A stretch of DNA of 59,671 nucleotides, from positions 1-59,671 of IMG/VR virus record IMGVR_UViG_3300032311_000698; one strand, written 5' to 3'. Numbering within the stretch: position 1 is the first letter of the stretch; each line of letters starts with the position of its first letter. This DNA comes from a virus. The notes beneath the pieces are model-generated. The model was not told where the DNA came from, did not search any database, and saw only the letters and a program-made list of their open reading frames with translations. Below, one piece after another: positions 34,537-58,861 of this stretch. Position numbers and translations under genes: made by a program.

Positions 34537-34698
34537 TGTATTTACATTGTAGTTTGATTGTCATTCTGTACCCCCCACTTGAAAACTTTCTATAGAATAG
34601 AATAAACTGATTGGGTTATAGCCCAATCAGTTTAATGGAGTATAGAAAAAGTTTTTATATAGGGATCTTGAAAGGGATCAAACTACAATGTAAATACA
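34537..34698 (+). repeat. Nested palindromic control element, copy 1
   Basis: The 263-base gap from 34485 to 34747 contains three levels of inverted repeat. Outer: a perfect 21-bp inverted repeat (34537-34557 with 34678-34698). Middle: a stem between 34582-34594 and 34641-34655. Inner: a 13-bp stem (34603-34615 with 34622-34634, TAAACTGATTGGG / CCCAATCAGTTTA). Bases 34582-34634 (53 bp) are identical to 58782-58834. It stands between TerL and a near-leaderless promoter. It may act as a bidirectional terminator, operator or replication or packaging site. The first ~50 bases of the gap (34485-34534) hold short GGATTCGGG repeats. Confidence 0.85.
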
Positions 34699-36823: not shown

Positions 36824-36848
36824 CAACAACAAATAACCAGTGTCTGCT

Positions 36849-39800
36849 ATGTCAGAGCTTGATCAACTACTAAAACAAGATCCCGACTTCCTCCCTCTTA
36901 ACGATTGGAAAAAGGATAACGATACCGGAGACGAAATTAAAAACCGCAAGAATTATGCGGACTATGTTCGTGGAGAATACGTATCCGCTGGAGCATACAG
37001 CGACCGGATCGAGAATGAGATCCAGCAATCTACATTTGCCAGCTCGGTCAGCGACGGAGTTATCAGGGCGGATGATCAAAACGCAAAGGCTTTGTTGTTT
37101 ACACCGGACGAGCCCGATCTGGATACCAAACTCCAGACTATCCAGACCAATCTCGATACTACAGATCCAGCTTGGGACGCAGCCACGAAGTACCTCACGT
37201 TCAAAAAACTCAATCCGGACGACGCCGCATTGCCGGAAGATGTTCGCGCAAAGGGTGAACAGTATCTTGTAGACGCGCAATCCATCGCCGATACCGGATA
37301 CCGCAAGGCTGTTAAGTCAGCTGTCCGTAGCGGCGAACTCCCACTCGCCAAAGTCAAGAACGACAAAGGCGAGTACGAGATTCTTGTTTCACCGACGGCG
37401 GATGCTATGAATATGGCAGAGGCTATTCGCGCCAGTAAGAAGGGCGGCGTATCGTTTGCTGACGCTTCCGCTGTGCAGTCGAAACTTTCCACTCCAATTG
37501 GATTCAACGAGCCTATCTACAAGTTTGAGCGTTATACACAAGCTGCTTCGATGATCGAAGAGTACGCAAAGAAAGATTCGCATACATCCAAAATCATCCA
37601 GAACTATTCTGAAGAACTCGCTGCCGCTGATAAAGACGGACGCGCACCAAAATCTTTTGATGAATACGCTGGCTCTATCCGTTTTCAATTAAACAAGAGC
37701 GGCCTCATTCCGGAAGACGATGCCTTGTCAAATGAGGAGGTGTCGAAGGCACTTACACAGATCGCATATAACAACGCGAATGCAGGCGGTCGATTCAAAC
37801 TCTACGACAAACCAGAAGAGGCTTACAAGAATGTTCGCAATGTAGGATTTGGCATGGCCTTCGTGCACCCAGCAGCGTTGGTTAATGATAATCTTTTTTC
37901 TCAATCGGTGACAGATAACCCTAACCTTTCTGCCGACCAGAAAAAGATTCTTGAAGCCCGCCGTGAACCAGCACTTCAACAACAGTTTGATTCTACTAAC
38001 GATCTACTGTCCAAGTCATCAAAGTCGGACGAGTGGCTAAACGCGTTGCAATCTGGCCGCGTCTCTGGCAAAAAAGATACAGAGATCCTAAAAGAATTCG
38101 TATCAAATCCCGACAACTTCAGCGAGATTCAAGACCGCCTAGTTGGAGTTGGTAAATCAATCGTGGACGGTGTCGGCGAGATGGCCGCTGCTATCCCAAT
38201 GATGATGGGCGCAGATTGGGCACGCGACTACATGGTAGGCAACATCAAAGAGCGGAGCAATCGCCGCGAAGTCGCTCGTTTGTTCGGTGCAGAATACGGA
38301 GTCGTGCAAGATATCGCAGAATCACTTGCTCCGATGTTGGCCGACGTTGCCGCAACTGGATTGCTTGCAGCCGCTACCGCACCAGCCGCTGGCGTCGGCG
38401 GTGCTGGCTTCCTCGCCGCCAAGCAGGGAGCACGACTCACTGCAAAGGGGCTGCTCAAAGGGATGACCTCTAGTGCCTTGCGCCAGTTACCAACAGAGAC
38501 TGCCGAAGCCGCAGCTGAAAGGCTCGTTGCCCAAGGACTCATTAAGGCGTCCACAACCGAAGCCGGACTCAATGGAGCACAAGCCGCAATTAAAGGATTC
38601 AACAGCGAACTAGCTAAGACAATTGGTGGCACATCTGCCGTCGCACTCCCCGCATTCAACCGCTCTGCCGGAGCTACATATGCTTCGGTCTATGCGACAC
38701 TCGAAAACAACAAAGACCTTACTCCGGAAGAGAAGCACAATCGCGCACTCGGAGCCGGACTCATGGCTGGTGCAACTACCGCTCTCATAACTGGAGCGTT
38801 TGGTGCTTTCGGACGTGGCGGTCTTGAAGATGCCCTACTCAGCGGAGCCTCCCGCAAACAGATTAAGAATGTGGTCGCCCGTCTCGCCAATGTTGATGAC
38901 ATTCCGGATGATGTTTTCAATAAAGTTATTTCCAAACAGGTTTCTGAAACCCTTAAAAAGTATGGAACTTTCGATGCTGCTAAAGGAGTTGGCAAACAAA
39001 TTTTTAAGAACTCCGTTGATGAAGGGGCTGAAGAAGCTCTCGATCAATTTGTTAATAACTTCATCACAGATGCCGCCACAGATGAAGACACTCCATTCCT
39101 TGAAAAACTTGAACAAGCCGGACGCGCCGCTCTAATCGGCGGCATTATCGGTGGTGGCGTTCCCGCCATTAAAGCAATAAAGGGAGCTGTCATGGAACGT
39201 CCTGATATTGGAGTGCAGATCGGAGTCGAGACAGAGTTCGCTAGAGGTGTTAGCAACAAGCTGACAGAAAGCGGGAGCCCACTCACAGCTCAGACTGTCT
39301 ACAGTATCCTCACCGCCCCACGCCGCGCACGTGCTCCAATCGCTCAAGCAATTCTTGACCAGTCTCGCCAGCCAGCTATTGCCGATGAAGTAGCGACTGA
39401 AGTAGATACCGAAGTCGAAGATATCCAAACCCCAACAGCAGAGCAGATTACGGAGGCTCTTAACAATTCGACGTCTCCCGATACCGTTGCTAAAACAATT
39501 GTTGATGAGCGCGGCCAGTCGCAGTTTGCCTTTGTGGAAGATATCCCGACAACCGAAGTTGCCAAAAGAGGCCGTACAGTACGCAAGCCCGCTGGCCCTA
39601 CCAGTCCGGTGGCGCAGCAATTAGAGTTCGATTACACATCGAAGCAAGACAAGAAACCCCAAGACCAACTTGATCTTGGACTCGACACTTCAAGTCCAGA
39701 GAAGCCGAAGATAAAGAAGACGCGCACAGCATCTTCCACTAAAAGTATTAAGAAGGCAAAACTCGCAGAGCAGCTTGGACTTGATTTTGATTCCGCTTCG

Positions 39801-42800
39801 GTTGACGAACAGAACAACCACATCAACGCAAACTATTCAGATGAGGATCTGACAGATCAAGATAAGGCCGACCTGAACGCCGAACTCGCAGCAGAGCAAC
39901 TCCCAACTGAAGAGCGCAACCGGATGTTGATTGAACTCTTCGGGGCGATTGAGTCGCAACAGACAAAAGCCCCAACAACGAAGGGCAAGAAAGCTACAAA
40001 GAATATTCCTGCTCAAGCTACTGCCCAACCCCCTATCCTCGGCGCAGCTATTGGGGCGAAGGAACCGATGTTTTCTCCAGACGAGTTCATCGATGACGAG
40101 ATGATCGGCCAAGAAGTTGCCTCTCTAACAAGGATCGCCACACTCGGATATCCAGTCCGGTTGGAGCGGAAGGCTCTTCATGGGATGCCCCAACGTGGGA
40201 CTTATCCAAAAGGATATCTTGTTGGAAAGTCGGACATGGTCGCTAGAAAAATTAGCGAGCTGTATCCAGTTCGTGTTGATAAAAACGCAGTCGAAGCGGA
40301 GACTATTGTTAGCAAAGAAAAAGTTTCGTTCTATGACCCCAAAGTCAAATCGGTTGTTCGCAGAACACCGAAGGCTTCTATTGATAAGAGCGGAGTGGGT
40401 ATCTTCAACAACGATCCCGTCTCCATGAAGCTGCTTCTAGACCGCCGAATTCCGGTTGTCATTCCAGACAGTTTTGTTTCGGTTCTCAACCCATCTTTCC
40501 GCACATATACATCCGGAGGAGTCCGCTTCTTGAACGACATCGTGATGACTAATCCGGAAACCGGAACCGGATTCGTGTCCGTTCTTACCAAAGAAGATCA
40601 AGTTATTTCTAGCGAGCCAAACTATAAGTACTACGCAAACTTGTCATCCTTTACTGCGCTGTTCAATCCAGAGATTACTAGCCGTTCCGTTCCCAACCTA
40701 AGAGGTGGGTCCGGCGAAGTTACTCTCGACGAAATTATTCAAGACGCAGATCAACTTGCTGCCGCTGCTTCTAGTGGCAGGCCGAATAGTGCCTATGGAG
40801 ATCCAGAGAAAGCCCGCGCTACTCTTCGCGTTATCGTGAAGCCAAGAAAGGGGACACTTGAAACAGAGTTCTTTGAAGCTGCTGTGCCAGCATTTAATAT
40901 GTCGGTACGCAAAGAGGCCATCATCCACGAACTCCGTCTTGGAATGGATAAATTCTCGGAACGCAAGTCCGGAGAAGCGACACCAACACTCAAGACAGAC
41001 AAAATCGCAGCCGCTATCGACGACTTGGTTTCACGAACCAAAGTCGATAAAGACATAGCGGCTCGAAATATTGCTGGTATATTTGGTTCGGACATTGATC
41101 CAGAGACTGAGCCAGATCTAGTACTGCAAAAGTTTATCGAGAATGAGGTGCTTGTCCGCCCTCCCTTTATGCCAACCTTCCGCGAGATCGGTGCTAAAGT
41201 TGGTAACGCATTTGCTGAACAACAACGTAGCCGCGATATCTTTTCTAGGAAAGCATTGTTCGAGACCACCGATCCGACCGATCTGGCGCAGATCCAAGAC
41301 GATACCGAACTCTTCGATCCAGAGGCCGAAGCGGCGGACAATACATTCATTGCTCCTACCACACCGTTCGAGGCTCCGGATTCGAGTTTGATTGGGAAGG
41401 CTCTGAAAGAAGCCACGTTCGATGCCGCCGATGCTCTGGACTCCGATCCAGAGATGCGTTCCCAGATTGACAGACTGCTTCGCCGGACTGTGTTCAAAGG
41501 CAACAGCGCAATCGACATCACCAAACTTAGTTCGACCGACGCGTTCGGGATGCTCGCATCTTGGATGTCTTCCGGAAACTATAACACCAATCCGGATGCA
41601 ATTAAATTCCAGCGCGATCTTCGTGACGGTGTTTATGTAAGCGGGGACAGGATGCGTCGAGTGATGAAGATGATGTACTTGAGTTCCAAGACTATCGAAG
41701 GCGATCCAACAAAGGATGTCGCCTATGTCGAATCCATTCGCGAGAACTTGGAGAGTTCGTTCGGTCGCTCCGTCTCTAGACAAGAGGCTTCCGACTATCT
41801 CAAATCAATTGGTAATGCTATTCAACCACTCTGGTCTCGCTCCTATGTTCGCGGAGAACAAATCGCTTACGCACGCCAACAGAACGATGCAGAGGTAGCC
41901 CTCCTTGGACTGAAGACCAACGATCCGGAGTCCGTCATTAAAGCACTCAAAACAATCGCCTCTTCCGAACCGGACGCGAACAAGCGTCTGCTCGCCAAAC
42001 TCCTCTTGGAGAATCAAGGATACATCAGACAGGTCGAGTTCACTCTGGATGAGTCGCCACTCCAATATGCTGGTGCTTACATGAAGGCGTCCAATGGATC
42101 GCCAATGATCTCTGTCAACTTGGACGGACACAACGGACGCGGTCTTGTTGATGTACTCCTCCATGAGTACACCCACGCATTTGTTAGCATCTCCGTTGCC
42201 AGCCCGAACGAGAACCTAAACGCTGCCCAACGCGGATCGCTTCAACGGATCAACGGTATCCTTGAGTTGGCTCGACGCTTCGCCGCTGACAACGGAATCA
42301 CAGATCCGACTCTGACCGACGGGCTCGAGAATGTTAATGAGTTCGTTACACATTTCTTTACCAGCACAGATTTCCAAGGATTCTTGAAAGCCCTGTTGCC
42401 TCCGGCGAAACAGCGTGGCTTCTTTGCCCGCATGGTTGATGCCGTGCTTGATATGTTTGGTCTCGGAAGGTCGAATCAATCGGACTACCAGAAAGCGTTT
42501 ACCGATATCGTTGACCTTACTAAAGAAGCCGTTCTCCGCGCTCCGATGACTCCGGCTGGTCTGATCAACCGTATCGCTGGCCCCGCATCCCGAACCCTGC
42601 AACAGGTTTCCGAAGCCGCTAAAGCGATCAATGATACAATTCGCCCGACTCAAGTTGCGGCTGAAGTTGAAACGACAGCGGTTGAAGCCGACATCGTTGC
42701 TGAACAGGAGACCGAAGCGATTGTGCAAGGGATTACGGAACAAGACATTGCTCCGTCCGTAAATAGCACGACTGCCGAAACATTGGCGAAAGTCAAGGAC

Positions 42801-45800
42801 ATGATCCGCATGGTTCGCCGAATGGTTCCTGCGGAATTTGAACTCGAAATCAGAACCGATTTGCCATACGCCGCCGCGTTCCAAGGCGGTAAGATCTTGC
42901 TCAATCCAAACGCGATGTCCGGTGTCGTAGCTGGTCTCGACGACGTCTCCGCTAGGGGAATAGTCGAAGGTATCATGACGGAGGAAGCCGCGCACGCCGC
43001 ATCCTACAACGCGCTCACACAGCAAGAGCTTGATAACTATGTCGCTACATTGAAGGAGTCTGACTTCGACGATGTCATCGATAGGTACTACCAGACAGAT
43101 GAACTGAAGGTCGCCGCCAAAGCACGGATCCGTTCTGAGGATCCGACCACCGCTGCACGCGAACGCGAAGGCTTGGCTGAAGAATTGCTCCGGATGCACT
43201 CACAGAAAGTGACACGTGGATTCACTACCGAAGAAGACTACATGTTCTGGCGTAGCAAGCCTTCGCTACTCAAGATCATTGGCCGCTACATGAAGGGATT
43301 CATTAACCGCTACATGGCTGGTAAGTCTGTCGCTACCATGAACGGTACGCAACGTGCAACGCTTCAGCGGATGATCACCGAAGTTCGTGCCATCAACGCT
43401 GGCTATCGCCTCACTCCGAACACGCTGGAGTTTGATGCGCGTAACCCACACGCGACAATGGCGCAGATTGCGACACAGTTTGGGGCTGTCATAACTGAGG
43501 AGCCTAAAACAACAAGAGGTCAGGTCTATCTCACATCAGCTCTTGAAGTGCTATATGCAGATAGTTCTCGCCTCCCAAAACCTAAAAGCAAAAAGTCAAT
43601 ATCATCTGTTGCTAACGAAATAGCAGCTGCTGCGCCAGAGTATTGGGGTCGAATCATAACAAGCCAAGACATTACTCCGGAGGAAGAAGTCATTATCGTC
43701 AACAACGGCGTCGAAGAGTTTATTGCAGCTTTCAACGATAGCGGGAAAAATGCGGCAGACTGGTATTCTACAGCCATTGAAATCGCTATGGAAGTGGCTT
43801 CAATTATCCATCCAGAACTTTCTGATCCAGCAGCGGCCCGCCGAGTCGCGGCATTCGCGCAAGCAGAAGATCCCGTTCAAGCTGCCCGACTAGCAATGAG
43901 GATGGCGTTGGCCATAACGTCCCAAAATATCAACGTAACCCAAAATGCAGGTTACGCAGAAGAGCAATTTGCTATCCTTAAACGAGATGGTAAATTCGAT
44001 TCAAAGAAAGAATATGGCGCTAAAGCAGCCGCGATCCGCAGCAATCTGGAATTGGCTAACATTCTCGTATCGAAGTATGGCTACAAAAGAGCAGAAGAAT
44101 TCATCCGCAAACAGTTTACCGTCAAGGATCTTGAAACTCAAGCGAGCGCAATTCGGAACAAAAAAGTCAGTATTGATGGCCTAAAAGAAGACGTGGTTAA
44201 TGGAGCCGCTATCTTCGGGCCGAAGATTGGTCAAGGGTTTCTTCAAAACTTGATGGCGAACTTTGATCCCGTCACTATTGACTTGTGGATGCGCCGCACA
44301 TGGGGTCGCTGGACGGGAGATGTTGTAGGAGATGGCGTGACCGACAAACGATTAGCGCGATTGATTGAAGCTGCGCGGGAGTCCGGTATCAAGTTACCTC
44401 CATCAGTCAATAAGCTCCGTGTTATCGAACGACAGGATGTATTGGCAAGTGGCAAACTTGGTCAACCTTACAGATCCGTATCCGATAAAACTCTGGAGTT
44501 ACTTGAGCAAGATGAAGACTTCCGAAGTGGTATCAATGAATTGTCGCGGCAGCTTGTCGGGGAATGGGAAAAAATGTTTAGTCTACTCAAGAAGCCTATT
44601 TCTTCTAATCTCTACAATAGAATCCTAAACGGAGAAGCGGACTACAAGACCGCTGTTAAAGAACAAAAAAGATTTGACGACAAACTAACCGTCATCCTCT
44701 TCAAACAGGAAAAAGCGAAAGCAGAGATCGGGAGAAAAAAAGCTGCGGAGAAAGGCGAAGAATTGCCGCCGTTTGAAAAAAATGTTGACGCATGGAGGAA
44801 GAGGAAATATGCTGAGGCCGGACGGAACATCCTGCTTGAAAACGAAAAAATCTCCAGCATCAAACCAGCGTGGGCTAATGCCGCATCATCCATCAAAACA
44901 AAACTTAACCCGATTGATGCCCCATCTCGGAAAGACAGGGAGGTTATCACTCGCGTTGTAAATTCAATTAGGGAAGAACTTAACAAGAGAGGATACCCCA
45001 CTACGAATGCAGATGTTCAAGCCGTTCTATGGTATCCAGAAAAAGACCTCTGGGCTAAACTAGCAGGCGAAGAAGAAAGCGAACTAAAACTATCTTATGA
45101 CGACGAATTCATTAAAATTGCCACGCAGCGTGGACTCGGACAGCAAGCTCGACAAGCCGCTGAAAACATCAGAGCCAATCGAGCCACACGAAATAACCAA
45201 AGGAATGTCCAGCCAGCAGATAGAAGACTTTCTGGACAGGCTGATGGCGTTACCAGACAGATCAGAGCAACCCAAATAGGATCCGAACAATATGGAGAAT
45301 CTACAGTTGGAGCAAGAACTCCCCTACAAAAGACCCCCGAAAGGGTGGGACCCGAAAACCGAAGCAGCCAAATTCAACGGCAAAATCTTCGGCCCAACGC
45401 TGAACCAAACCCCTTCGTTCAAGAAAGAGTCTCCTCCTACAACTCAAAGTACGGACTTGGAGAAGTAGTCCAAGGTCACTATGTTCCTTTGGATCAAGAG
45501 AGATCCAAAAAGATTGCGGCAATCTATGAAGCATTGCCTGTCTTTGATTCTGGAGAAGAGACACAACAAGCATACACAGCTCTTGCAAAAGAGATCCAGC
45601 AACAATGGGACTACGCCATTCAAGAAATGGGTATTTCATTCGAGCCATGGACTCAAGAAGGCCAACCATATAATAGTTCTCGCGAAATGGTTAGAGATGT
45701 TCGCGACAATAAACATCTTTGGTTCTTTACGGGAGGCGAGCCCCACCCTCTCCTCAACCAACCCGATGAAGATGGGCTTACTATTAACGACAAATTAAGA

Positions 45801-48800
45801 GCAATCCATGATTTGTTTGGGCACGCCGCAGAAGACTATCAATTTGGAGCGAGGGGGGAAGAGAACGCGTGGCTCAAACACAGTCAAATGTTCTCGTCAC
45901 TAGCTCAACTCGCACTCACTACTGAGACACGTGGTCAAAATTCATGGGTTAATTTTGGCCCGCAGAACTTTGGTCCTAATGGCGAGCGATTAGATATTGC
46001 CCCCGAAGACAGACCGTTCGCCTTACAAAAAGTTGGTTTGCTCCCACCAGAATTCTCTGAATGGAAATCACTTCTCAGAACTTCTCCCTCAATTATTGCT
46101 ACTCAGTTTGGAGCTGGCGGCGAAAGCGTAGCAAGTCAAGTCATCTCAATCCCAAGGAAATACGGAACTCCGATCGAGATTCATAAGATAAATTCTATTT
46201 ATGATGCAGACGGCAACCATGCTAATGACTTGTCTAAACTAATTTCTTCTGTGCGGGATAAGGCTTCTAAAGTAGATGGAAAAGTTTACGGTAAGAAATT
46301 CTTGGTAATTGTTGACGGAGACAGAAAAGAGATCTCTACGATATCCGCACTAAACAATTATCTCAGTGGAATTACTGGAGATGAAGGAGTCCGCGTCTTC
46401 AAGAATGGTAACAATCAAATTGCAATAAATTACGATTGGCAATACGATATGGCGTTACTGCCGGAAGAGCAGGCAGAAGCCAAAAAACAATTCCAAGACT
46501 TAACACAAAGCCGAACACTCGCTACCCAATTCGGCGCGGCTTCACAACTGCCCGTTGGATTCGATGCTGACACCATCGACTACAGCAACTTCCTTGAGTC
46601 GCTTGAGATGCCGATGATGGAGATCGGCACTTACCAGTCGCCAAAGGGAATGCTCGACAAGTTGCTCAAAGGCGAACTCGATCCAAGAATCCTGCGCCTT
46701 AAAAACCAGCGCGACTTCTTCAACAAGGCTACCTTTGATCTTGCCGAACGATACAAGACCAAGCTCGACGCGATCATCAAGAGGGACTTCGGTGGTATCG
46801 AGAACGCTCCAGTCGATCTTATCCAAGACGCAACTGGTTCGACAAAGGGACTCGCTCTTCCGGAAGATGTACTCACACAGATCGAAGATGACTTCAACTA
46901 CGATCTCGATGTCATCGATACCGACGACACGCTGACCGCAGAGGACAAGAGGATAGCACGCGGCATCGCCATGATGAATCGGGACAAGACAATTCTCGAT
47001 GCAGAGAAGACATTGGCCGACTCGATCCGTACCAGACGGGACGACGCACTCGGCCAGCTCGCCACTCAATCGCCAGATCTTGTTAAGCATATCGTCCAGC
47101 TCCGTACCTTAACCGACGAGATGTCGAAGAAGGTAGCGAGCCTGTACGGATTCCCACCAGAACTCAAAGCGAAGTTCGATAACCAGCTCGGCATCTATCT
47201 CACCAGAACATACAAGATGTTTGATGAGATCGGATTCGGCGAGAAGGTTCTCGACGATCCAGACTACGAAACTGTTCGTGACGCCGCGATTAACTTCTTC
47301 GAGAAGCAATTCATCGACAGCGAAGTTCGCCGCCGTATCTCTGGAGCGAACGGAGTTCCGCGAGCGCAAGCCGAAGCTGAAGCGAAGCGTGAGCTTGGAC
47401 TCAAGACGATGGGTGGCAGGACATATGGCCAGCTCATGATGGAAGAGTTTATCAACAGCTACGACAAGACTGGCAAGGCGATCTCTGCGACCAACATGAG
47501 CCGCCAGCTCAAGCCGTTGCTCGACAATGTCCAACTGAAGCGCGACCTTCCGAAAGAGATCCGCGATCTTCTTGGAGAGAAGGGAGCCGAAACCGGAGTG
47601 GATAACCTGATCCGTTCTCTCATCACTACTGGTTCGATGGCGGCGAACCAATCGTTCCTCAACAATGTCCGCGACATCGGTCGTGCCGGAGGATGGCTCA
47701 TCACCGCTACCGAACTCGCTGATGGCAAGAAGAAGGACTACGATACATTCGGTAAGTACAAGTCAATCAGAGAGTCAACAAGCTCAAGCTACGATCCGCT
47801 CGGCGAACTCTACGGCCCGCCGGAAATGGTTGACGCTTTCCGTAAGGTGTTCTCTCCAGACGGGATCCGGTTCAACCAGACCGCCGCGCAAGAGGTAGTC
47901 GGCAAGACGATCGGTGTTGCCGCCCGCCTGTCCGGCGCGGCGATGGCGGCGAAGACTCTCGGCTCGATTGGATTCTATGTCCGCAACGTTGTATCGAACG
48001 CCCTCTTCTTCGCTCCGGCCCAAGGCTTCGTGAACTTCAAGTCGATGGCGAAGAAGGCTTACGATGAAGTTTGGAGCAACGCGATTATCGATCCAGCAAA
48101 GATCGATTCCTACCGCACCAAGCTGATATCACTCGGAGTTATCGGTGATGATATCAATACCAGTATCATGACGGCGATGCTTCGCGGCGGCAACAGCGTG
48201 GACGATATCGAAACCAAACTCGGAGAGCTTATCGACACCGCGAAGAAGGGGGCAAAGCCCCTGCAATGGCTGTCGCAACGCGCTCAAGTTTTGTCCGGAT
48301 CGGTCGATGCATTCTACAAGATCGCTTACTATGAGAATGAACTTCGGGTCTTGAAGGAAGCCCGCGCCGTTGATACCGGAACATTGGCTTCGGCCTCTGA
48401 CTCACAGCTTGAGCGGATGGCTGCGGACAAAGTACTGGCTACCGCGCAGTCATCGTCGCAAGCACCACCTCTTGTGCAAGAAGTTACCAAGTCCGGTATC
48501 GGACTGCTGTTCGCTCCGTTCCTCCGGTTCAAGGTTGAGGTTCCCCGCATCGTCCTCAACACCTACAAGACGGCGATGGCGGAGATGAAGTCTAGCAATC
48601 CGGTCTTGAAACAACGCGGCATCACGCGCTTTGCTGGAATGACAGCGATGCTTTCGGGCGTCTCGGCCATCGTTCCAGCCGTCGCCAGCGCGCTCGCCGG
48701 AATCGGAGAAGACGAAGATGATGCGCTCCGCTCATCCGTTCCAGAGTACTTGAGGAACCACACCTTCTTCTACCGCCGCAAGGCTGATGGCCAACTCCAA

Positions 48801-49625
48801 TCGTGGGACTTCACATTCCTCAATCCGTTCTCGATCTTGGCCGACCCGACCATGCGTTCGATGGAGCAATTGTTCAGAGGCAATCCGGCAAAGGCGGCGG
48901 CGAAGTTTGTTGAGGTAGCGATCTTCGACCAGTACTTGGACGATCAGATCCTATCGTCCGCCGTTCAAAGCCTCCGCGATAACGAGAACCCATCGACCAA
49001 GAAGCCGATCTATGAGGAGAAGCTGGACAACGCTGGCATCGTGTTGCTGAAGTCGTTAGGGTTCCTGTTCAAGGAAGCGTACCAGCCTTCGGTCATGAAG
49101 CGTGCGATCGAGTCTTACCAAGCGGTCGGCGCGGACTACACAGAGTTTGACGATAGTCCGGCTGGCATCTTGATGAGAGAATTCTATCCTGTTAAACGCC
49201 ACGACATCGAACTCGACAAGCAACTCCGCAACTATCTGGCGGACACACGCGATGTATTCAATCGGGTTAGTGAGCGGAAGAACGCATTGTTCAGCAAGAA
49301 GGCGATGGAGAACGACGATGTCAAGGATGTCATCCAATCGGAGATCGAAGACAAAGCGAAGATCAACGAGGATGTCTACAAGAAACTGCGCGGCTTTGAA
49401 GGTCTCGGCCTCACGCCACAGCAACTCTATCAGATCACGACCGGAATGGGCTACGGCAAAGACCGCACCCGTCTGCTGTTCAACAAGATTATGGATCGTC
49501 CAGTTCTCAATCCAGAGTTCATCAAGCGGTTGTCCGATCCAGAGAACGAGCAGGGAGCAGAGCGTCTCAAGGCCGCACTTGAAGTCCTCCAAGGCACGCC
49601 ACGATACATCATGCTTGAGCCGTAA
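36849..49625 (+). CDS. Giant polyvalent internal protein (4,258 residues)
   Basis: The largest gene, about 21% of the genome. I start it at the ATG at 36849; a GTG at 36840 is possible. In order: a helical N-terminus; hydrophobic Ala/Gly-rich segments (about 439-457, 492-527, 634-655, 761-782) suited to membrane insertion; an acidic Thr/Pro linker; a zincin-type motif HEYTH at residues 1772-1776 (DNA 42162); a related EEAAH at 2045-2049 in which the first His is replaced; modular segments with an A/T-rich character, including GPKIGQGF...DLWMRRTWGRWTGDV and an HDLFGH motif (2987-2992); and a long C-terminal helical region with VRNVVSN, LRFKVEVPR and SWDFTFLNPFSI. Such polyvalent giants are seen in environmental podophages; it is probably carried in the head and ejected to act in the host. 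It is convergent with the next gene (2 bases apart). Confidence 0.85.
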   Translation: MSELDQLLKQDPDFLPLNDWKKDNDTGDEIKNRKNYADYVRGEYVSAGAYSDRIENEIQQSTFASSVSDGVIRADDQNAKALLFTPDEPDLDTKLQTIQTNLDTTDPAWDAATKYLTFKKLNPDDAALPEDVRAKGEQYLVDAQSIADTGYRKAVKSAVRSGELPLAKVKNDKGEYEILVSPTADAMNMAEAIRASKKGGVSFADASAVQSKLSTPIGFNEPIYKFERYTQAASMIEEYAKKDSHTSKIIQNYSEELAAADKDGRAPKSFDEYAGSIRFQLNKSGLIPEDDALSNEEVSKALTQIAYNNANAGGRFKLYDKPEEAYKNVRNVGFGMAFVHPAALVNDNLFSQSVTDNPNLSADQKKILEARREPALQQQFDSTNDLLSKSSKSDEWLNALQSGRVSGKKDTEILKEFVSNPDNFSEIQDRLVGVGKSIVDGVGEMAAAIPMMMGADWARDYMVGNIKERSNRREVARLFGAEYGVVQDIAESLAPMLADVAATGLLAAATAPAAGVGGAGFLAAKQGARLTAKGLLKGMTSSALRQLPTETAEAAAERLVAQGLIKASTTEAGLNGAQAAIKGFNSELAKTIGGTSAVALPAFNRSAGATYASVYATLENNKDLTPEEKHNRALGAGLMAGATTALITGAFGAFGRGGLEDALLSGASRKQIKNVVARLANVDDIPDDVFNKVISKQVSETLKKYGTFDAAKGVGKQIFKNSVDEGAEEALDQFVNNFITDAATDEDTPFLEKLEQAGRAALIGGIIGGGVPAIKAIKGAVMERPDIGVQIGVETEFARGVSNKLTESGSPLTAQTVYSILTAPRRARAPIAQAILDQSRQPAIADEVATEVDTEVEDIQTPTAEQITEALNNSTSPDTVAKTIVDERGQSQFAFVEDIPTTEVAKRGRTVRKPAGPTSPVAQQLEFDYTSKQDKKPQDQLDLGLDTSSPEKPKIKKTRTASSTKSIKKAKLAEQLGLDFDSASVDEQNNHINANYSDEDLTDQDKADLNAELAAEQLPTEERNRMLIELFGAIESQQTKAPTTKGKKATKNIPAQATAQPPILGAAIGAKEPMFSPDEFIDDEMIGQEVASLTRIATLGYPVRLERKALHGMPQRGTYPKGYLVGKSDMVARKISELYPVRVDKNAVEAETIVSKEKVSFYDPKVKSVVRRTPKASIDKSGVGIFNNDPVSMKLLLDRRIPVVIPDSFVSVLNPSFRTYTSGGVRFLNDIVMTNPETGTGFVSVLTKEDQVISSEPNYKYYANLSSFTALFNPEITSRSVPNLRGGSGEVTLDEIIQDADQLAAAASSGRPNSAYGDPEKARATLRVIVKPRKGTLETEFFEAAVPAFNMSVRKEAIIHELRLGMDKFSERKSGEATPTLKTDKIAAAIDDLVSRTKVDKDIAARNIAGIFGSDIDPETEPDLVLQKFIENEVLVRPPFMPTFREIGAKVGNAFAEQQRSRDIFSRKALFETTDPTDLAQIQDDTELFDPEAEAADNTFIAPTTPFEAPDSSLIGKALKEATFDAADALDSDPEMRSQIDRLLRRTVFKGNSAIDITKLSSTDAFGMLASWMSSGNYNTNPDAIKFQRDLRDGVYVSGDRMRRVMKMMYLSSKTIEGDPTKDVAYVESIRENLESSFGRSVSRQEASDYLKSIGNAIQPLWSRSYVRGEQIAYARQQNDAEVALLGLKTNDPESVIKALKTIASSEPDANKRLLAKLLLENQGYIRQVEFTLDESPLQYAGAYMKASNGSPMISVNLDGHNGRGLVDVLLHEYTHAFVSISVASPNENLNAAQRGSLQRINGILELARRFAADNGITDPTLTDGLENVNEFVTHFFTSTDFQGFLKALLPPAKQRGFFARMVDAVLDMFGLGRSNQSDYQKAFTDIVDLTKEAVLRAPMTPAGLINRIAGPASRTLQQVSEAAKAINDTIRPTQVAAEVETTAVEADIVAEQETEAIVQGITEQDIAPSVNSTTAETLAKVKDMIRMVRRMVPAEFELEIRTDLPYAAAFQGGKILLNPNAMSGVVAGLDDVSARGIVEGIMTEEAAHAASYNALTQQELDNYVATLKESDFDDVIDRYYQTDELKVAAKARIRSEDPTTAAREREGLAEELLRMHSQKVTRGFTTEEDYMFWRSKPSLLKIIGRYMKGFINRYMAGKSVATMNGTQRATLQRMITEVRAINAGYRLTPNTLEFDARNPHATMAQIATQFGAVITEEPKTTRGQVYLTSALEVLYADSSRLPKPKSKKSISSVANEIAAAAPEYWGRIITSQDITPEEEVIIVNNGVEEFIAAFNDSGKNAADWYSTAIEIAMEVASIIHPELSDPAAARRVAAFAQAEDPVQAARLAMRMALAITSQNINVTQNAGYAEEQFAILKRDGKFDSKKEYGAKAAAIRSNLELANILVSKYGYKRAEEFIRKQFTVKDLETQASAIRNKKVSIDGLKEDVVNGAAIFGPKIGQGFLQNLMANFDPVTIDLWMRRTWGRWTGDVVGDGVTDKRLARLIEAARESGIKLPPSVNKLRVIERQDVLASGKLGQPYRSVSDKTLELLEQDEDFRSGINELSRQLVGEWEKMFSLLKKPISSNLYNRILNGEADYKTAVKEQKRFDDKLTVILFKQEKAKAEIGRKKAAEKGEELPPFEKNVDAWRKRKYAEAGRNILLENEKISSIKPAWANAASSIKTKLNPIDAPSRKDREVITRVVNSIREELNKRGYPTTNADVQAVLWYPEKDLWAKLAGEEESELKLSYDDEFIKIATQRGLGQQARQAAENIRANRATRNNQRNVQPADRRLSGQADGVTRQIRATQIGSEQYGESTVGARTPLQKTPERVGPENRSSQIQRQNLRPNAEPNPFVQERVSSYNSKYGLGEVVQGHYVPLDQERSKKIAAIYEALPVFDSGEETQQAYTALAKEIQQQWDYAIQEMGISFEPWTQEGQPYNSSREMVRDVRDNKHLWFFTGGEPHPLLNQPDEDGLTINDKLRAIHDLFGHAAEDYQFGARGEENAWLKHSQMFSSLAQLALTTETRGQNSWVNFGPQNFGPNGERLDIAPEDRPFALQKVGLLPPEFSEWKSLLRTSPSIIATQFGAGGESVASQVISIPRKYGTPIEIHKINSIYDADGNHANDLSKLISSVRDKASKVDGKVYGKKFLVIVDGDRKEISTISALNNYLSGITGDEGVRVFKNGNNQIAINYDWQYDMALLPEEQAEAKKQFQDLTQSRTLATQFGAASQLPVGFDADTIDYSNFLESLEMPMMEIGTYQSPKGMLDKLLKGELDPRILRLKNQRDFFNKATFDLAERYKTKLDAIIKRDFGGIENAPVDLIQDATGSTKGLALPEDVLTQIEDDFNYDLDVIDTDDTLTAEDKRIARGIAMMNRDKTILDAEKTLADSIRTRRDDALGQLATQSPDLVKHIVQLRTLTDEMSKKVASLYGFPPELKAKFDNQLGIYLTRTYKMFDEIGFGEKVLDDPDYETVRDAAINFFEKQFIDSEVRRRISGANGVPRAQAEAEAKRELGLKTMGGRTYGQLMMEEFINSYDKTGKAISATNMSRQLKPLLDNVQLKRDLPKEIRDLLGEKGAETGVDNLIRSLITTGSMAANQSFLNNVRDIGRAGGWLITATELADGKKKDYDTFGKYKSIRESTSSSYDPLGELYGPPEMVDAFRKVFSPDGIRFNQTAAQEVVGKTIGVAARLSGAAMAAKTLGSIGFYVRNVVSNALFFAPAQGFVNFKSMAKKAYDEVWSNAIIDPAKIDSYRTKLISLGVIGDDINTSIMTAMLRGGNSVDDIETKLGELIDTAKKGAKPLQWLSQRAQVLSGSVDAFYKIAYYENELRVLKEARAVDTGTLASASDSQLERMAADKVLATAQSSSQAPPLVQEVTKSGIGLLFAPFLRFKVEVPRIVLNTYKTAMAEMKSSNPVLKQRGITRFAGMTAMLSGVSAIVPAVASALAGIGEDEDDALRSSVPEYLRNHTFFYRRKADGQLQSWDFTFLNPFSILADPTMRSMEQLFRGNPAKAAAKFVEVAIFDQYLDDQILSSAVQSLRDNENPSTKKPIYEEKLDNAGIVLLKSLGFLFKEAYQPSVMKRAIESYQAVGADYTEFDDSPAGILMREFYPVKRHDIELDKQLRNYLADTRDVFNRVSERKNALFSKKAMENDDVKDVIQSEIEDKAKINEDVYKKLRGFEGLGLTPQQLYQITTGMGYGKDRTRLLFNKIMDRPVLNPEFIKRLSDPENEQGAERLKAALEVLQGTPRYIMLEP

Positions 49626-52201: not shown

Positions 52202-53653
52202 TCAGCGGTGGGTGAATGATACCACCTCACCGAAGGTGTATGGCTTGGCAATGTCTGTGCCGTAGTCGAGCCAGAGAACCGGAGCTTGCGGCTGGCGCAC
52301 GCTGTCCCAATCATACGCCTCGCCATCGGTGAGGTACACGATGCCGTCAACCTCCGGAGCATTGGCTTCGATCCAGTCGAAGGCTGGCTGGAACGCTGTG
52401 CCGCCGCCGCCCTTGAGTGTCGGTGGGATCACATCTCCGGCAAAGTATTCGTCGGCCTGTTGCACGCGCCAGTCGCACGCGATGAGGTGAACGCTGGACA
52501 CTTGCCCTTCGTCGAGCGCGTGTTGGACTTCGCCAAGCATCTCGATCAGCAGGGACTGCGGCACGCTGATGCTGGTGTCAATCACCACCGCCACGCTGTT
52601 GAGCGCACGGCGTTGGCGGCCAGCCGCGATCACGCCAGTCGAGAGGAACACCGGAGCGTTCAGCGGTGCTTCCCATCCGTTGCGGTTGGAGCTGGTGAGG
52701 AACTGGCGGAGGTGCGCGGCCCAGTCGGTTCCGGTTCCCTTGTGGCGGAGCTTGTCGATCGTGCGGTTCTGACCGCCACCACCGATTCCGGCGCGTGCGT
52801 TGATCGCGTCTTCAAGCATCTGCCTCTCGTTGTCCGACTCGATCTCGCGTTCAATATCGTCAATCGACTCGCCCGCTCCGGCTTCCGGCTCGGCCAGATC
52901 ATCGCCGCCACCGCCGACCCAATCCTTGCCAAGGATGTCGGAGTCAGATTGCTTGCCGCCAGCTTCGCCGTCCGCGCCGCCATCGTCGTCCTGCTGATCG
53001 CTGTCACCGCCAGTCCCTTCGGCATCGGCATCGCCATCGTCGTCCTGCTGATCGCTGTCACCGCCAGTCCCTTCGGCATCGGCACCGCCATCACCATCGC
53101 CATCGTCGTCCGCGCCATCGTCTTGCGGCTGTGGCTGTGGCTGTGGCTGTGGCTGTGGCTCCGGCCCGTCTTGCTCGCCATCTGGCTTCATGATCCGCTG
53201 GTAGACTTCCTCTGCGCTGAAGTCGGCGGATACCGACTCGTCGAACAGGATGCCCTCGATGAAGGGGAAAGGCACGAAGCCGTGTGCCGTGTTGACTTCG
53301 GTGTTACGCGCCTTGATCAGCGCGTTGATCACATAGTCAGCCGCAATGTTCGCGGTCTTGGCATCGGCCAAGAGGCGGAGCCGGAGCGCGTGGTTCAAGA
53401 GCGCGTGCAAAGCCTCATGCACCAGAAGGAAAGCGGTGAGGCCGACCGGATCGCTTGTCTTGTCGAGCTTGGCAAGGCCAGCCGGATTGAGCAAGAGGCG
53501 GCGTCCATCGGTCGCGCCGTAGGAAGTGGCATCGGTCGCCTCCCAACGGAGGGCGAGGAGCTTGCCGTAGGCGAGCGGCCAATGCTGGGAGACGCGGCGC
53601 ATCGCGGCGGAGAGGGTGGGTGTGTGGTCGGTGTTCATGGTTTCAGTCTTCAT
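52202..53653 (-). CDS. DUF2201-type metallopeptidase/VWA protein
   Basis: A 483-residue protein, partner-type protein for MoxR-like AAA+ ATPases. Residues 79-83 read HEALH, a zinc site, with NIAADYVIN (about 102-110) following as in DUF2201 N-terminal domains. Residues ~165-260 are a very acidic and Gln/Pro-rich linker containing two copies of AEGTGGDSDQQDDDG. The C-terminal VWA-like domain has a MIDAS set DTSIS (359-363), GGGGTAF (416-422) and LTDGEA (441-446). Two ATG starts (53653, 53638) are possible. A clear leftward promoter (TTGACA at 53690-53695, TAACTT at 53667-53672) and a 13-bp hairpin (53686-53725) precede it. Confidence 0.85.
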   Translation of the reverse strand: MKTETMNTDHTPTLSAAMRRVSQHWPLAYGKLLALRWEATDATSYGATDGRRLLLNPAGLAKLDKTSDPVGLTAFLLVHEALHALLNHALRLRLLADAKTANIAADYVINALIKARNTEVNTAHGFVPFPFIEGILFDESVSADFSAEEVYQRIMKPDGEQDGPEPQPQPQPQPQPQDDGADDDGDGDGGADAEGTGGDSDQQDDDGDADAEGTGGDSDQQDDDGGADGEAGGKQSDSDILGKDWVGGGGDDLAEPEAGAGESIDDIEREIESDNERQMLEDAINARAGIGGGGQNRTIDKLRHKGTGTDWAAHLRQFLTSSNRNGWEAPLNAPVFLSTGVIAAGRQRRALNSVAVVIDTSISVPQSLLIEMLGEVQHALDEGQVSSVHLIACDWRVQQADEYFAGDVIPPTLKGGGGTAFQPAFDWIEANAPEVDGIVYLTDGEAYDWDSVRQPQAPVLWLDYGTDIAKPYTFGEVVSFTHR

Positions 53654-53666
53654 TGGTTACGGGTTC

Positions 53667-53695
53667 AAGTTACAGGGTACAGGATGGGGTGTCAA
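53667..53695 (-). promoter_or_regulatory. Leftward promoter for the VWA protein gene
   Basis: On the minus strand, TTGACA at 53690-53695, a 17-base spacer and TAACTT at 53667-53672. The ATG at 53653 is 13 bases past the -10. The -35 is inside the right arm of a hairpin. Confidence 0.7.
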
Positions 53696-53725
53696 ACTAT
53701 TTTCTTTTATTAAGTTCGACACCCC
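53686..53725 (-). terminator. Hairpin between the DUF3150-like and VWA genes
   Basis: A 13-bp stem with one G-T pair (53686-53698 with 53713-53725, core GGGGTGTC/GACACCCC) and a 14-base A/T loop, 8 bases after the stop of the upstream gene. On the minus strand no T run follows. It may be a weak terminator or processing site overlapping the next promoter. Confidence 0.6.
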
Positions 53726-53733
53726 TTCCGATA

Positions 53734-54612
53734 TCAGATGCCCAAGTCGGCGAGGGTTTGCTCCGCCTTGCGGTGAGCCTCCGCGATGCGATCGGCGGCG
53801 GCGTCACGCTGGCCCTTGGTAAGGCTGGCGGCATCGGTCACATCCTCAACCGACTCGCGGAGAGACGCGACCAGCTTGTCAAGTTCGGGCAAGGCCAGCC
53901 AATTCTTCGCGGCGATGTCATCGGCGGCGGCGCGGATTTTATCGAACCGCTCTTGCCGGATCCGCTTGCCGTTGCGAACTTGCTCAACCGACTCGGCCAG
54001 ATTGGCAATGAGGTCGCGCACCGGATAGCCGTGGGCGGCGAGCAGGTCAGAGCGCACAGCCTGCTCCGACGATGCGCGGACACGGGCGGCGGTCTCGGCT
54101 GTTACCGATTCCAACAGCGTGCCAGCGATCGGCGCGGGTTGGCCAAGCCATGTGAGCGAGATCGTGAAGCGGTTGGCAAACTCTTCAGCGGTTGGCCATT
54201 CGACTTCCCATGCGAGCTGGCCAAGATCATTGCGAGCCGCCGCCACAAGGTGCGGCCACTCCGCCACGATGTCTTGCCGGATCGTGACCAGCTTGGCCAC
54301 GGCGTCATCGAAGATCTGCTGGACTGCGTCCACATCTTTCGCCTGCACATAGGACGCCCCCTCAATTGAAGGGCAAGGCAGGGCGTGCTTGCGGATCGCC
54401 GCTTGGGTGGTGTTGACCAGCGCGGCGGCGCGGCCAACGGCGGAGCCTTTGCGCTCGATGATAGTGGCACGCACGCGGGCCGACTTATTCGATGCGCCAT
54501 TGTCACGCGCCAGCTTGGCAGTCGCGCCCTTGTGGAGCGTGGAGGTTGAGGGCGCGGTGCTGGAAAGTTTTACAAGAACCAGCGAGTTGATTTGATTGAG
54601 GTTGGTTTGCAT
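53734..54612 (-). CDS. DUF3150-like protein (middle gene of the trio)
   Basis: A 292-residue, helical, Ala-rich protein. Residues ~88-160 (KDVDAVQQIFDDAVAKLVTI, EWPHLVAAARNDLGQLAWEV, EWPTAEEFANRFTISLTWLG) recall the DUF3150 family, which occurs beside MoxR-like ATPase and VWA genes in some bacteria and phages. The first ~75 residues are basic, the C-terminus is a coiled coil. It may form or deliver the substrate for the AAA+/VWA machine. Preceded by a repeated promoter element. The family name is tentative. Confidence 0.55.
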   Translation of the reverse strand: MQTNLNQINSLVLVKLSSTAPSTSTLHKGATAKLARDNGASNKSARVRATIIERKGSAVGRAAALVNTTQAAIRKHALPCPSIEGASYVQAKDVDAVQQIFDDAVAKLVTIRQDIVAEWPHLVAAARNDLGQLAWEVEWPTAEEFANRFTISLTWLGQPAPIAGTLLESVTAETAARVRASSEQAVRSDLLAAHGYPVRDLIANLAESVEQVRNGKRIRQERFDKIRAAADDIAAKNWLALPELDKLVASLRESVEDVTDAASLTKGQRDAAADRIAEAHRKAEQTLADLGI

Positions 54613-54647
54613 AATTTTTATTTTCTATTTCAATTTGGGGTGGGGTT

Positions 54648-54691
54648 GCCGCCACTTTACAGGCGGGCGGCGTGCCGTCAATGTTATTTTC
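54648..54691 (-). promoter_or_regulatory. Repeated intergenic promoter element, copy A
   Basis: A 44-base block identical to 55850-55893. On the minus strand it carries TTGACG (54676-54681), a 16-base spacer and TAAAGT (54654-54659), and a GC-rich inverted repeat (GCCGCC/GGCGGC). It would drive the DUF3150-like gene, whose ATG is at 54612. Confidence 0.7.
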
Positions 54692-54708
54692 TTGGATGCC
54701 CTATCTGT

Positions 54709-54725
54709 TAGTGCGGGCCGCACTA
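54709..54725 (-). terminator. TAGTGC-GGGCC-GCACTA hairpin, copy A
   Basis: A short perfect palindromic hairpin (stem TAGTGC/GCACTA, loop GGGCC), 6 bases after the stop of the MoxR-like gene. One of four such hairpins in the leftward cluster (also 55911-55927, 56795-56823, 57572-57592). It has no T run after it. Confidence 0.7.
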
Positions 54726-54731
54726 GTGGAA

Positions 54732-55811
54732 TCACACGCCTTGCATTTGCTGGCGGCGTGGGTGCTGATCGAGCGGCAAGCCACAGCGGAGCGCGGTGGC
54801 ATAGCCGTAGGCGCGGATCTCTCCGCGAGCGGGCAGGAGGATCCGTTCGACCAGCCAGTCGAGCGCACCGCTTGCAACGGCCACCGCCGGATCAGCGGCA
54901 GTCTCTCGCTTCGCGATGCGGAGCGCGGCGTGGGTCAGGGCCTGTTGGCTTGCCGGATCGGCGGGCATATCTTCCGCGCCGGAGCGGATCGCGTTGAGCT
55001 TCGGCATGAGGTCGCCGACCAGCTTGATGAAGGCGTAGGCGGCACGGCCAGCGGCCTCACCGACGAAGCCCTCCAACACAAGCGCGGCCAGCCTATCGTC
55101 GAGCTGGTCATCGAGCATCGCACGGCACGCCGCTTCCCATGAGCGCGGAGTCGGGTGCGGCGATCCGTCCCAAGGCTGTGGAATGTCCGGTGAGAAGTGA
55201 TCGACGCCGTGTTGGTCTCCGCCTTGGAATTTCAAAAAGGTGAAGATCGGCGATGCCGCCAGCCCTTCGCCTGCCGCCCAGTCGAGCCAGTCATCGAGGG
55301 TAGGCTCGACCGCGTAGCTGGCACAGCGGCTGACAAGCGGAGCGGTTGGCACAGCGGAGCGTGCCCCATCGGATCGGCGGTTTCCGGTGATCATGATCTT
55401 GACATTCCGGCCAAGCTCATGCACGCCGATCTTGGGCGGGCCGCCATCGGTATTGAAGAGCGAACGGCACAGCGACTGAATCGATGAATCCCATTCCGGA
55501 AACTCATCGAGCACCAGCAGGACGCGCTTGTCACCGACCCGCTTTGCGGTGGGCCATTGCTCCGGCTCGATGAAGTAGCCCTCGCGAGATTCGAGAACCG
55601 GAACGAGATAGCCAACCGCATCTTGCGGGAGGGATCCGGATAGGTTCACCACCGCGACTTCATCAAAGCCAAGGGCTGGCGCAATGGTGTTGGCGGCGAT
55701 GCTAGTTTTGCCGACTCCGCCTTTGCCGTAGATGGCGAAGAAGCGGTTCGATGCGAATGCGATACGGGCGATGTCAGCGGCTTGGCTGATTTTGATTTGG
55801 GGCAGTTTCAT
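54732..55811 (-). CDS. MoxR-like AAA+ ATPase
   Basis: A 359-residue ATPase of the MoxR/CbbQ type. GKGGVGKT (29-36) is Walker A, VLLVLDEFPEW (97-107) Walker B, MITGNRRSDG (140-149) sensor 1 and a basic VSRC (160-163) follows, in the usual MoxR order. The C-terminal ~120 residues are helical. With the DUF3150-like and VWA proteins it would form an ATP-driven remodelling or insertion machine for a partner protein or metal cofactor. It has its own promoter repeat upstream and a hairpin just after the stop. Confidence 0.88.
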   Translation of the reverse strand: MKLPQIKISQAADIARIAFASNRFFAIYGKGGVGKTSIAANTIAPALGFDEVAVVNLSGSLPQDAVGYLVPVLESREGYFIEPEQWPTAKRVGDKRVLLVLDEFPEWDSSIQSLCRSLFNTDGGPPKIGVHELGRNVKIMITGNRRSDGARSAVPTAPLVSRCASYAVEPTLDDWLDWAAGEGLAASPIFTFLKFQGGDQHGVDHFSPDIPQPWDGSPHPTPRSWEAACRAMLDDQLDDRLAALVLEGFVGEAAGRAAYAFIKLVGDLMPKLNAIRSGAEDMPADPASQQALTHAALRIAKRETAADPAVAVASGALDWLVERILLPARGEIRAYGYATALRCGLPLDQHPRRQQMQGV

Positions 55812-55849: not shown

Positions 55850-55893
55850 GCCGCCACTTTACAGGCGGGCGGCGTGCCGTCAATGTTATTTTC
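55850..55893 (-). promoter_or_regulatory. Repeated intergenic promoter element, copy B
   Basis: Identical over 44 bases to 54648-54691. It contains the leftward TTGACG (55878-55883) and TAAAGT (55856-55861) with a 16-base spacer and drives the AAA+ gene (ATG at 55811, a 44-base leader). Confidence 0.7.
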
Positions 55894-55910: not shown

Positions 55911-55927
55911 TAGTGCGGGCCGCACTA
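55911..55927 (-). terminator. TAGTGC-GGGCC-GCACTA hairpin, copy B
   Basis: Same sequence as copy A. It overlaps the last base pairs of the stop region of the next upstream gene (stop at 55925), so it acts as a 3'-end hairpin for that gene. Confidence 0.68.
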
Positions 55928-56833: not shown

Positions 56834-57385
56834 TCAGCCGATGGTGGGTTCAATGAAATTCCACAAACGGCTTCGCGCATCGGTGAGTCCTGCAATTTCA
56901 AGAGCACCCGCGATGACTTCCAGCTCGATGCTGGCCAGCAAGGCGGCGAGCGTTTCAGCGGTGTGCTTTGTGCCGTCTTCAACAAGGCACTCGACTTCGT
57001 CGTCGTCGCCTTCGCCTTCGCCTTCGTCGTCGGCATCGGCCTCCGGCTTGGCGGGCTTGGGTTCGATGGCGGCGGTGAGCAGGGCATCAGCGGCTTTCAA
57101 ATGGCCAGCATCGGAACGCTTGCCGCGAAGGCGGATGCCACATTCATTCAGCGTGCGGCTGATAGTCGATGGCACACACGCCTCGCCGACCGATTCCTTC
57201 ACTATCGCGGAGATGTCCTTTTCGGAGATTTTTGCTTTGGCGAGGATCGCCACTTGTTCGCGGATCACCGATGCGATCGATGCTTTGGCTTGGACAATGG
57301 CGACGAGTGATGCGGTCGCGGCGGCGGTGATAGCGGCGGCGGCGGTTTCGATGGCGGCGGTTTGTGTGGCGGAGTATTCGTTCAT
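56834..57385 (-). CDS. HTH-like regulatory-looking protein
   Basis: A 183-residue protein starting at the ATG at 57385 (MNEYSATQTAAIETAAAAIT); a longer frame to 57451 is unlikely. It has an Ala-rich helical front, then KISEKDISAIVKESVGEACV and PSTISRTLNECGIRLRGKRSD, which look like a helix-turn-helix for DNA binding. An acidic stretch (EADADDEGEGEGDDDEVECL) and a helical end follow. It sits next to the repeat-rich candidate origin, so it may act there or as an early regulator. The ATG is preceded by the recurrent TGAAATC motif and a TATACT just before it. Confidence 0.55.
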   Translation of the reverse strand: MNEYSATQTAAIETAAAAITAAATASLVAIVQAKASIASVIREQVAILAKAKISEKDISAIVKESVGEACVPSTISRTLNECGIRLRGKRSDAGHLKAADALLTAAIEPKPAKPEADADDEGEGEGDDDEVECLVEDGTKHTAETLAALLASIELEVIAGALEIAGLTDARSRLWNFIEPTIG

Positions 57386-57455
57386 GATTTCAGTATATTG
57401 GATTGTTGATCGGCACTTGTCTGGCAGGCCCCGCCGTTTGTCGATGTTCAACTAT

Positions 57456-57592
57456 CCATTGCAGGACAGCTTGTCGGCGGCTGTTCACCGCTGACAATTA
57501 CCCATTGCAGGACAGCTTGTCGGCGGCTGTTCACCGCTGACAATTACCCATTGCAGGACAGCTTGTCAGCGACTAGTGCGGGCCGCACTAGT
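57456..57592. repeat. Iteron-like 46-bp tandem repeats with hairpins
   Basis: Two complete 46-base units (from 57456 and 57502) and a partial third (from 57548). Each complete unit contains an inverted repeat TTGTCGGCGG/CCGCTGACAA around CTGTTCA. A hairpin (57572-57592, ACTAGTGC/GCACTAGT) follows in the third. The region is non-coding and separates divergent transcription units. It is a good replication-origin candidate. Confidence 0.8.
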
Positions 57593-57606
57593 GAGGCCGG
57601 ATCCGT

Positions 57607-57662
57607 GAGACAGGCAACCGGAGACAGGCAACCGGAGACGGGCAACCGGAGACGGACAACCG
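57607..57662. repeat. Four tandem 14-bp repeats
   Basis: Four copies of a 14-base unit (consensus GAGACAGGCAACCG, 57607-57662) with small differences in the last two. They are directly after the iteron-like block and probably bind a protein. Confidence 0.85.
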
Positions 57663-58774: not shown

Positions 58775-58861
58775 CACTTCAAAAACTTTCTATAGAATAG
58801 AATAAACTGATTGGGTTATAGCCCAATCAGTTTATAGTAGTTATAGAAAAGTTTTTATATA
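58775..58861 (+). repeat. Nested palindromic control element, copy 2
   Basis: This has the same inner 13-bp stem (58803-58815 with 58822-58834) and outer AAAAACTTTCTATA / TATAGAAAAGTTTTT stem as copy 1. Bases 58782-58834 are identical to 34582-34634, with flanks similar (CCACTT before; TATAGAAAA and GTTTTTATATA after). It lacks the 21-bp outermost inverted repeat of copy 1. It lies upstream of the module that leads to the portal. Confidence 0.9.

Follow-up and report, generated by a model that had tools for sequence, protein, structure and literature searches.

A MoxR-type ATPase, a DUF3150-superfamily protein and a zincin-VWA protein as a conserved gene set of phages and plasmids

The locus and its three proteins

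The window analyzed here is an entire virus record of 59,671 bases, which carries three consecutive genes on its minus strand at 52202-55811. A sequence-only reading had described three leftward genes with a series of quoted motifs, and the open reading frame listing of the window contains all three frames at the same coordinates, with every one of those motifs present. From the upstream end, the genes encode an AAA+ ATPase of 359 amino acids (54732..55811, minus strand), a helical protein of the DUF3150 superfamily with 292 amino acids (53734..54612, minus strand), and a 483-amino-acid protein (52202..53653, minus strand) in which a predicted N-terminal zincin-like metallopeptidase domain is joined through an acidic linker to a C-terminal VWA domain (DUF2201). 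The G+C content of this trio is 62%, compared with 50% in the rest of the window genome; in most relatives the trio is likewise richer in G+C, by a smaller margin. The three genes lie on the strand opposite to the terminase gene and to a giant open reading frame of 4261 amino acids (36840-49625, plus strand), which takes up a fifth of the genome, contains HEYTH-like motifs, and has a single PHROG match (phrog_3170).

The Walker A (G29-T36) and Walker B (D102, E103) motifs, sensor-1 (N144) and two conserved arginines (R162, R223) are all intact in the window ATPase, in which the corresponding stretches read GKGGVGKT from residue 29, VLLVLDEF from residue 97 and TGNRR from residue 142. Among 27 diverse members of the family, K35, N144, R162 and R223 are invariant and D102/E103 nearly so. 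In a PHROG search the protein matched phrog_1297 ('ATPase') with E = 1.8e-37. Searched as a single sequence, it gave Pfam matches below the cut-off; matches to AAA_3, AAA_5 and bpMoxR were found among its family members, and the best PDB relative of the family profile was the AAA+ ring of midasin (3e-34). By sequence comparison the ATPase thus falls closest to the MoxR/midasin clade, and its original description as a MoxR-type ATPase is supported by the PHROG match, the midasin profile match and the conserved catalytic residues.

The third protein carries HEALH at residue 79, DTSIS at 359, GGGGTAF at 415 and LTDGEA at 441. These belong to a predicted zincin site (H79 E80 xx H83 xxxx H88, with D106 and N110) and to a complete MIDAS in the C-terminal VWA domain (D359, S361, S363, T419 and D443). 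Both Pfam domains were matched well above their curated cut-offs (DUF2201_N, 7.7e-17 and 62.2 bits against 23.2; DUF2201, 6.4e-17 and 62.3 bits against 26.4), phrog_1314 was matched at E = 1.1e-51, and a structural model of the protein matches VWA folds, among them NorD of the NorQD complex. Matches of this order (1.8e-37 for phrog_1297, 1.1e-51 for phrog_1314 and about 7e-17 for the two DUF2201 domains) mean that the ATPase and VWA motifs are not chance occurrences. Of 84 long VWA-family proteins, 83 contain HExxH and all contain DxSxS, and in a diverse 30-sequence alignment H79, E80, H83, D106, N110, D359, S361, S363, T419 and D443 are invariant, which bears out the combination of HEALH with a VWA MIDAS set that had been read from the sequence. 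Since catalytic and metal-binding residues are retained across members, the motor and metal sites look to be under selection, and we infer that the zinc site cleaves protein. The label 'HNH endonuclease', carried by phrog_1314 and by several GenBank records, was taken as a misannotation, the domains being those of a DUF2201 metallopeptidase/VWA protein. The acidic linker (52963-53165) consists of coding repeats, a 54-bp unit and QP repeats, and its length differs among relatives.

The middle protein required family-level evidence. On its own it gave no Pfam match to DUF3150 at E ≤ 1, and single-sequence searches with it returned nothing from phage records or genome contigs. When relatives were collected from viral contigs and built into a family of 30, 13 members matched PF11348 (DUF3150) at E ≤ 0.1, the best at 4.8e-8. 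A profile of the close family aligned with a set of proteins from plasmids and a cyanophage, annotated DUF3150s among them (hhalign probability 96.4, E = 1.1e-9). An AlphaFold model of the protein was confident and mostly helical (pLDDT 88.5), and a Foldseek search of BFVD matched it to a viral protein named DUF3150 (A0A6J7WV52; E = 2.7e-11, TM about 0.69). A fold search of the PDB with this model gave no match at E ≤ 1e-3, which leaves the protein with no detectable relative of solved structure. Taken together, the PF11348 matches of the family, the profile-profile alignment and the match of the model support membership of DUF3150 at the superfamily level. It is at that level that the earlier mention of a DUF3150-like segment proved right, a relationship not visible from the single sequence. 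An alignment-based search of genome contigs recovered one MAG contig; a DUF3150 search of 297 genomes of that MAG's phylum gave no match, with the control genomes also silent.

A quite different reading, in which the ATPase and VWA proteins would be cobaltochelatase subunits of the CobST type, with which the phage raises cobalamin synthesis in its host, draws on the annotation of phage AAA+/VWA pairs as CobS/CobT and on the statement that CobT is often misannotated as a peptidase (PMC8651126). Neither Pfam nor NCBIfam yielded a CobS or CobT model match at E ≤ 1, however, and a 'porphyrin biosynthesis' PHROG reached 0.031, against 1.8e-37 for phrog_1297. We dismissed this reading on these family searches (Pfam, NCBIfam and PHROG) and consider it very improbable. 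To our knowledge, neither CobT nor CobN has an HExxH site or a DUF3150 partner.

Promoter-like elements and gene-end hairpins

Promoter-like sequences precede each of the three genes. A 44-bp element with the structure TTGACG-16-TAAAGT lies upstream of the ATPase gene (55850..55893, minus strand) and is kept in the related loci L001, L002, L003, L014 and L018. A second, identical copy upstream of the DUF3150 gene (54648..54691, minus strand) is kept in L001-L003 only, its place in L014 and L018 being taken by a hairpin. Searching with the 37-bp core of these elements gave exactly two matches, against none expected by chance. Upstream of the VWA gene is a TTGACA-N15-TGTAAC element (53669..53695, minus strand), of which TTGACA is kept in L001-L003, L014 and L018. 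A scan for sigma-70-like promoters found nine matches where shuffled sequences gave 5.2 ± 2.3, and the matches are individually unremarkable.

In this clade the ends of genes are often marked by near-perfect hairpins, typically 8-13 nt past the stop codon and without a T run. One lies between the DUF3150 and VWA genes (53686..53725, minus strand) and holds the TTGACA inside its 3' arm; the predicted RNA fold of the region (53654-53740) has z = -4.3 and is retained in L002 and L003 and partly in L001. The palindrome TAGTGCGGCCCGCACTA directly follows the ATPase stop codon (54709..54725, no strand assigned) and is kept at gene ends in L001-L003. It recurs at the end of the gene upstream of the trio (55911..55927, no strand assigned), whose stop codon is at 55925. 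In all, it occupies four window sites (eight matches over both strands) against 0.06 expected. Palindromic hairpins stand at 54709, 55911, 56801 and 57574 in the window and are also found in L014, L018, L012, L015, L035 and L038. One hairpin sequence often recurs within a genome, as TAGTGCGGCCCGCACTA does in the window and CCCGACTATCCCGCGACGGGATAGTCGGG in L035. Over 18 loci, mean z was -3.7 after ATPase stops and -2.8 after DUF3150 stops, compared with -0.5 inside genes, and such hairpins are also present at other genes of these phages. An Rfam search matched tRNA alone. The palindromic hairpins may act in this phage clade as terminators of a non-canonical kind or as protection of 3' ends, and because of them separate short transcripts of the trio genes are plausible in the closest relatives.

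The proposal that each gene has its own promoter rather than belonging to an operon can therefore be kept in part. The elements are real and, with the hairpins, set the genes apart in the closest phages, but the repeated element is confined to these close relatives, and a promoter for every gene fits them alone. Intergenic gaps of 7-30 nt in L031, L034, L042, L073 and other relatives point instead to ordinary operons there, and the promoter scan of the window stays near its shuffled controls.

Two other repeated sequences were seen in the window. A hairpin, TAAACTGATTGGGTTATAGCCCAATCAGTTTA, is present in two intergenic copies 24 kb apart (34603-34634 and 58802-58835). At 57449-57662, upstream of the gene at 56834-57451, three copies of a 46-bp element are followed by 14-bp repeats.

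Conservation in viruses and occurrence on plasmids

Related loci were gathered by iterative profile search of fetched loci, with identical copies removed. All three genes were found together in 48 non-identical loci. The order ATPase-DUF3150-VWA occurs in 23 of the 43 viral and MAG loci, with ATPase-VWA-DUF3150 and DUF3150-ATPase-VWA found in 10 each. Pairwise protein distances of the three families are correlated (Spearman 0.71-0.78; permutation maximum 0.15). On a maximum-likelihood tree of 61 ATPases, some with long branches, the presence of DUF3150 requires four changes compared with 19.2 when labels are shuffled; contig fragments may hide genes, which makes the label 'pair' weaker than 'trio' in this comparison. 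In a search of 29 full records, the majority of them picked as pairs, 28 lacked DUF3150. Annotated examples with the pair alone are Acinetobacter phage nACB1 (Schitoviridae), Bacillus phage G and Roseobacter phage CRP-7. Most neighbours of the trio have no known function, and the annotated ones, too few to assign the module to a process, comprise three DNA polymerase matches, one RNase H match and isolated matches to terminase and structural proteins.

The description of a complete three-part set held in these comparisons, in which the expected domains were found and the genes were conserved together. Its attribution to a phage proved too narrow, as the same trio is present on about 40 plasmids, mostly of Burkholderiales. 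A search of plasmid records with a cyanophage DUF3150 returned 42 records. Separate searches with the ATPase, DUF3150 and VWA proteins of Cupriavidus plasmid pRK1-1 returned 40, 42 and 109 records respectively, and the Burkholderiales records coincide in all three, nearly all with adjacent coordinates; in Simplicispira the ATPase is about 3.6 kb apart. Two Rhodovastum plasmids also carry the trio. Several plasmids have a PRTRC cassette on the upstream side of the trio and type IV secretion genes on its downstream side; of seven trio plasmids searched for VirB4, four were positive. Since the three genes are inherited together across many viruses and bacterial plasmids, they very probably encode a genuine protein machine of mobile elements.

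The plasmids also bear on a reading already proposed in the literature, namely that the module is a chaperone-protease of virion assembly, which folds and cleaves structural (tail or ejection) proteins of the phage. A pair of MoxR and N-terminal-metallopeptidase-VWA proteins is described in group 2.2 jumbo phages, and a role in virion assembly has been put forward for it, by analogy with ATV (Iyer et al., 2021; PMC7824862). In the archaeal virus ATV, the MoxR protein p618 interacts with the VWA protein p892 and with virion and tail proteins (PMC4124505), which supports a tail role for this archaeal analogue, and the giant 4261-aa product of the window could itself need processing. Against this, no terminase was detected on any of seven trio plasmids by a search that was positive in the window and in phage G and that missed phage MinM2, its sensitivity thus being limited. 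N4 genes 24/25, core genes of that phage group, are transcribed in the middle rather than the late phase (PMC4193335), and the trio of the window is on the strand opposite to both the giant open reading frame and the terminase gene. The occurrence on plasmids, together with the failure to detect terminase there, argues against a purely virion-assembly role, and we consider virion assembly an unlikely explanation of the trio. The occurrence on plasmids also argues that a virion part is not the general client of the machine.

Relation to known systems and a proposed function

Several known systems share parts of this arrangement. The jumbo-phage pair has the same domain architecture as the window ATPase and metallopeptidase-VWA protein, and the passage on it in PMC7824862 names no DUF3150 component; the window set differs in belonging to a phage genome of about 60 kb and in being shared with plasmids. 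In N4 and other Schitoviridae, the core genes 24/25 encode an AAA+ ATPase and a vWFA protein, adjacent or near to one another, and homology to the ATPase and VWA protein was detected in this phage group. Unlike the window, the N4-like locus of Acinetobacter phage nACB1 has no DUF3150 between or near the pair. The ATV proteins p618 and p892 resemble the window by description, in that a virus pairs a MoxR ATPase with a VWA protein; according to PMC7824862, no peptidase domain is present in the archaeal system. Cyanophage MinM2/Pag-Yong1 and Burkholderiales plasmids such as pRK1-1 carry members of all three families, arranged as in the window; these trios are known from annotation only, and their proteins have low sequence identity to those of the window.

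A phage pair without DUF3150 is thus already published (PMC7824862; PMC4193335), and the tail or virion hypothesis is not new, contrary to the earlier suggestion that a tail function would be. The three-gene set is seen in annotation and absent from searchable full-text papers; a full-text literature search, with most subscription journals outside its coverage, found no paper containing 'DUF3150'.

MoxR ATPases cooperate with VWA partners (PMC7159879), and the MoxR-vWA ternary conflict systems likewise join MoxR and VWA to a third protein, which is VMAP, iSTAND, FtsH or a beta-propeller (PMC7159879). In the window, by contrast, the third protein is helical and DUF3150-like, and the VWA protein has, in place of variable effectors, a zincin that stays constant. 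The recurrence of MoxR-VWA cores in conflict systems (PMC7159879; PMC12839542), and the fact that phages and plasmids share the trio and both face the problem of entry, would suit a counter-defence or host-takeover device, acting soon after infection or plasmid entry begins on a defence or regulatory protein of the host, which it would remodel or degrade. Yet conservation and vertical coherence, not a patchy distribution, characterize the trio, which on plasmids adjoins backbone PRTRC genes. A search for known anti-phage defence systems with PADLOC, which covers defence more than counter-defence, gave only a weak match of the ATPase to mad8 (E = 0.002), and a known defence system was rejected. 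We regard such a device as improbable, and slightly more so than virion assembly.

Because MoxR ATPases and their VWA partners act in protein remodelling or metal insertion (PMC9976466; PMC13036017), we propose, with a probability of roughly 0.55, that the trio is an ATP-driven protein-remodelling, and probably processing, machine of phages and plasmids, for which we infer a complex, a peptidase activity, an adaptor role and a shared client. The ring-forming MoxR/midasin-type ATPase would be the motor, with the zincin-VWA protein as its co-chaperone, whose MIDAS may grip the client or dock on the ring. The N-terminal metallopeptidase site would cut the remodelled client or be gated by it, and the DUF3150 protein would serve as a client-specific adaptor or scaffold. 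The client would be something common to phages and plasmids, for example machinery for replication, maintenance or transfer, or a host factor encountered early, and not solely a virion part. At slightly below even odds we place the more specific claim that MoxR, DUF3150 and zincin/VWA constitute one undescribed three-component system of tailed phages and plasmids whose substrate is a protein of replication, partition or transfer, or one of the host, and which does not act in virion assembly. N4-like phages have MoxR-VWA genes in their core set and jumbo phages carry them recurrently, with virion assembly as a working proposal and no proven function there. Because plasmids, conjugative ones included, also carry the zincin-VWA machine together with a conserved third protein, that proposal can be tested outside the virion, and DUF3150, a family of unknown function, gains a fixed partnership.

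The genes at the two ends of the window (positions 1 and 59671) adjoin each other in a related locus (L002:1-2679), and the window genome is therefore probably circular or circularly permuted, with the window near complete. In a further relative (record G040, locus L040; 47758-50385), a homologue of the DNA polymerase encoded in the window is interrupted by about 820 bp inside a single open frame of 877 amino acids, a pattern such as an intein would give.
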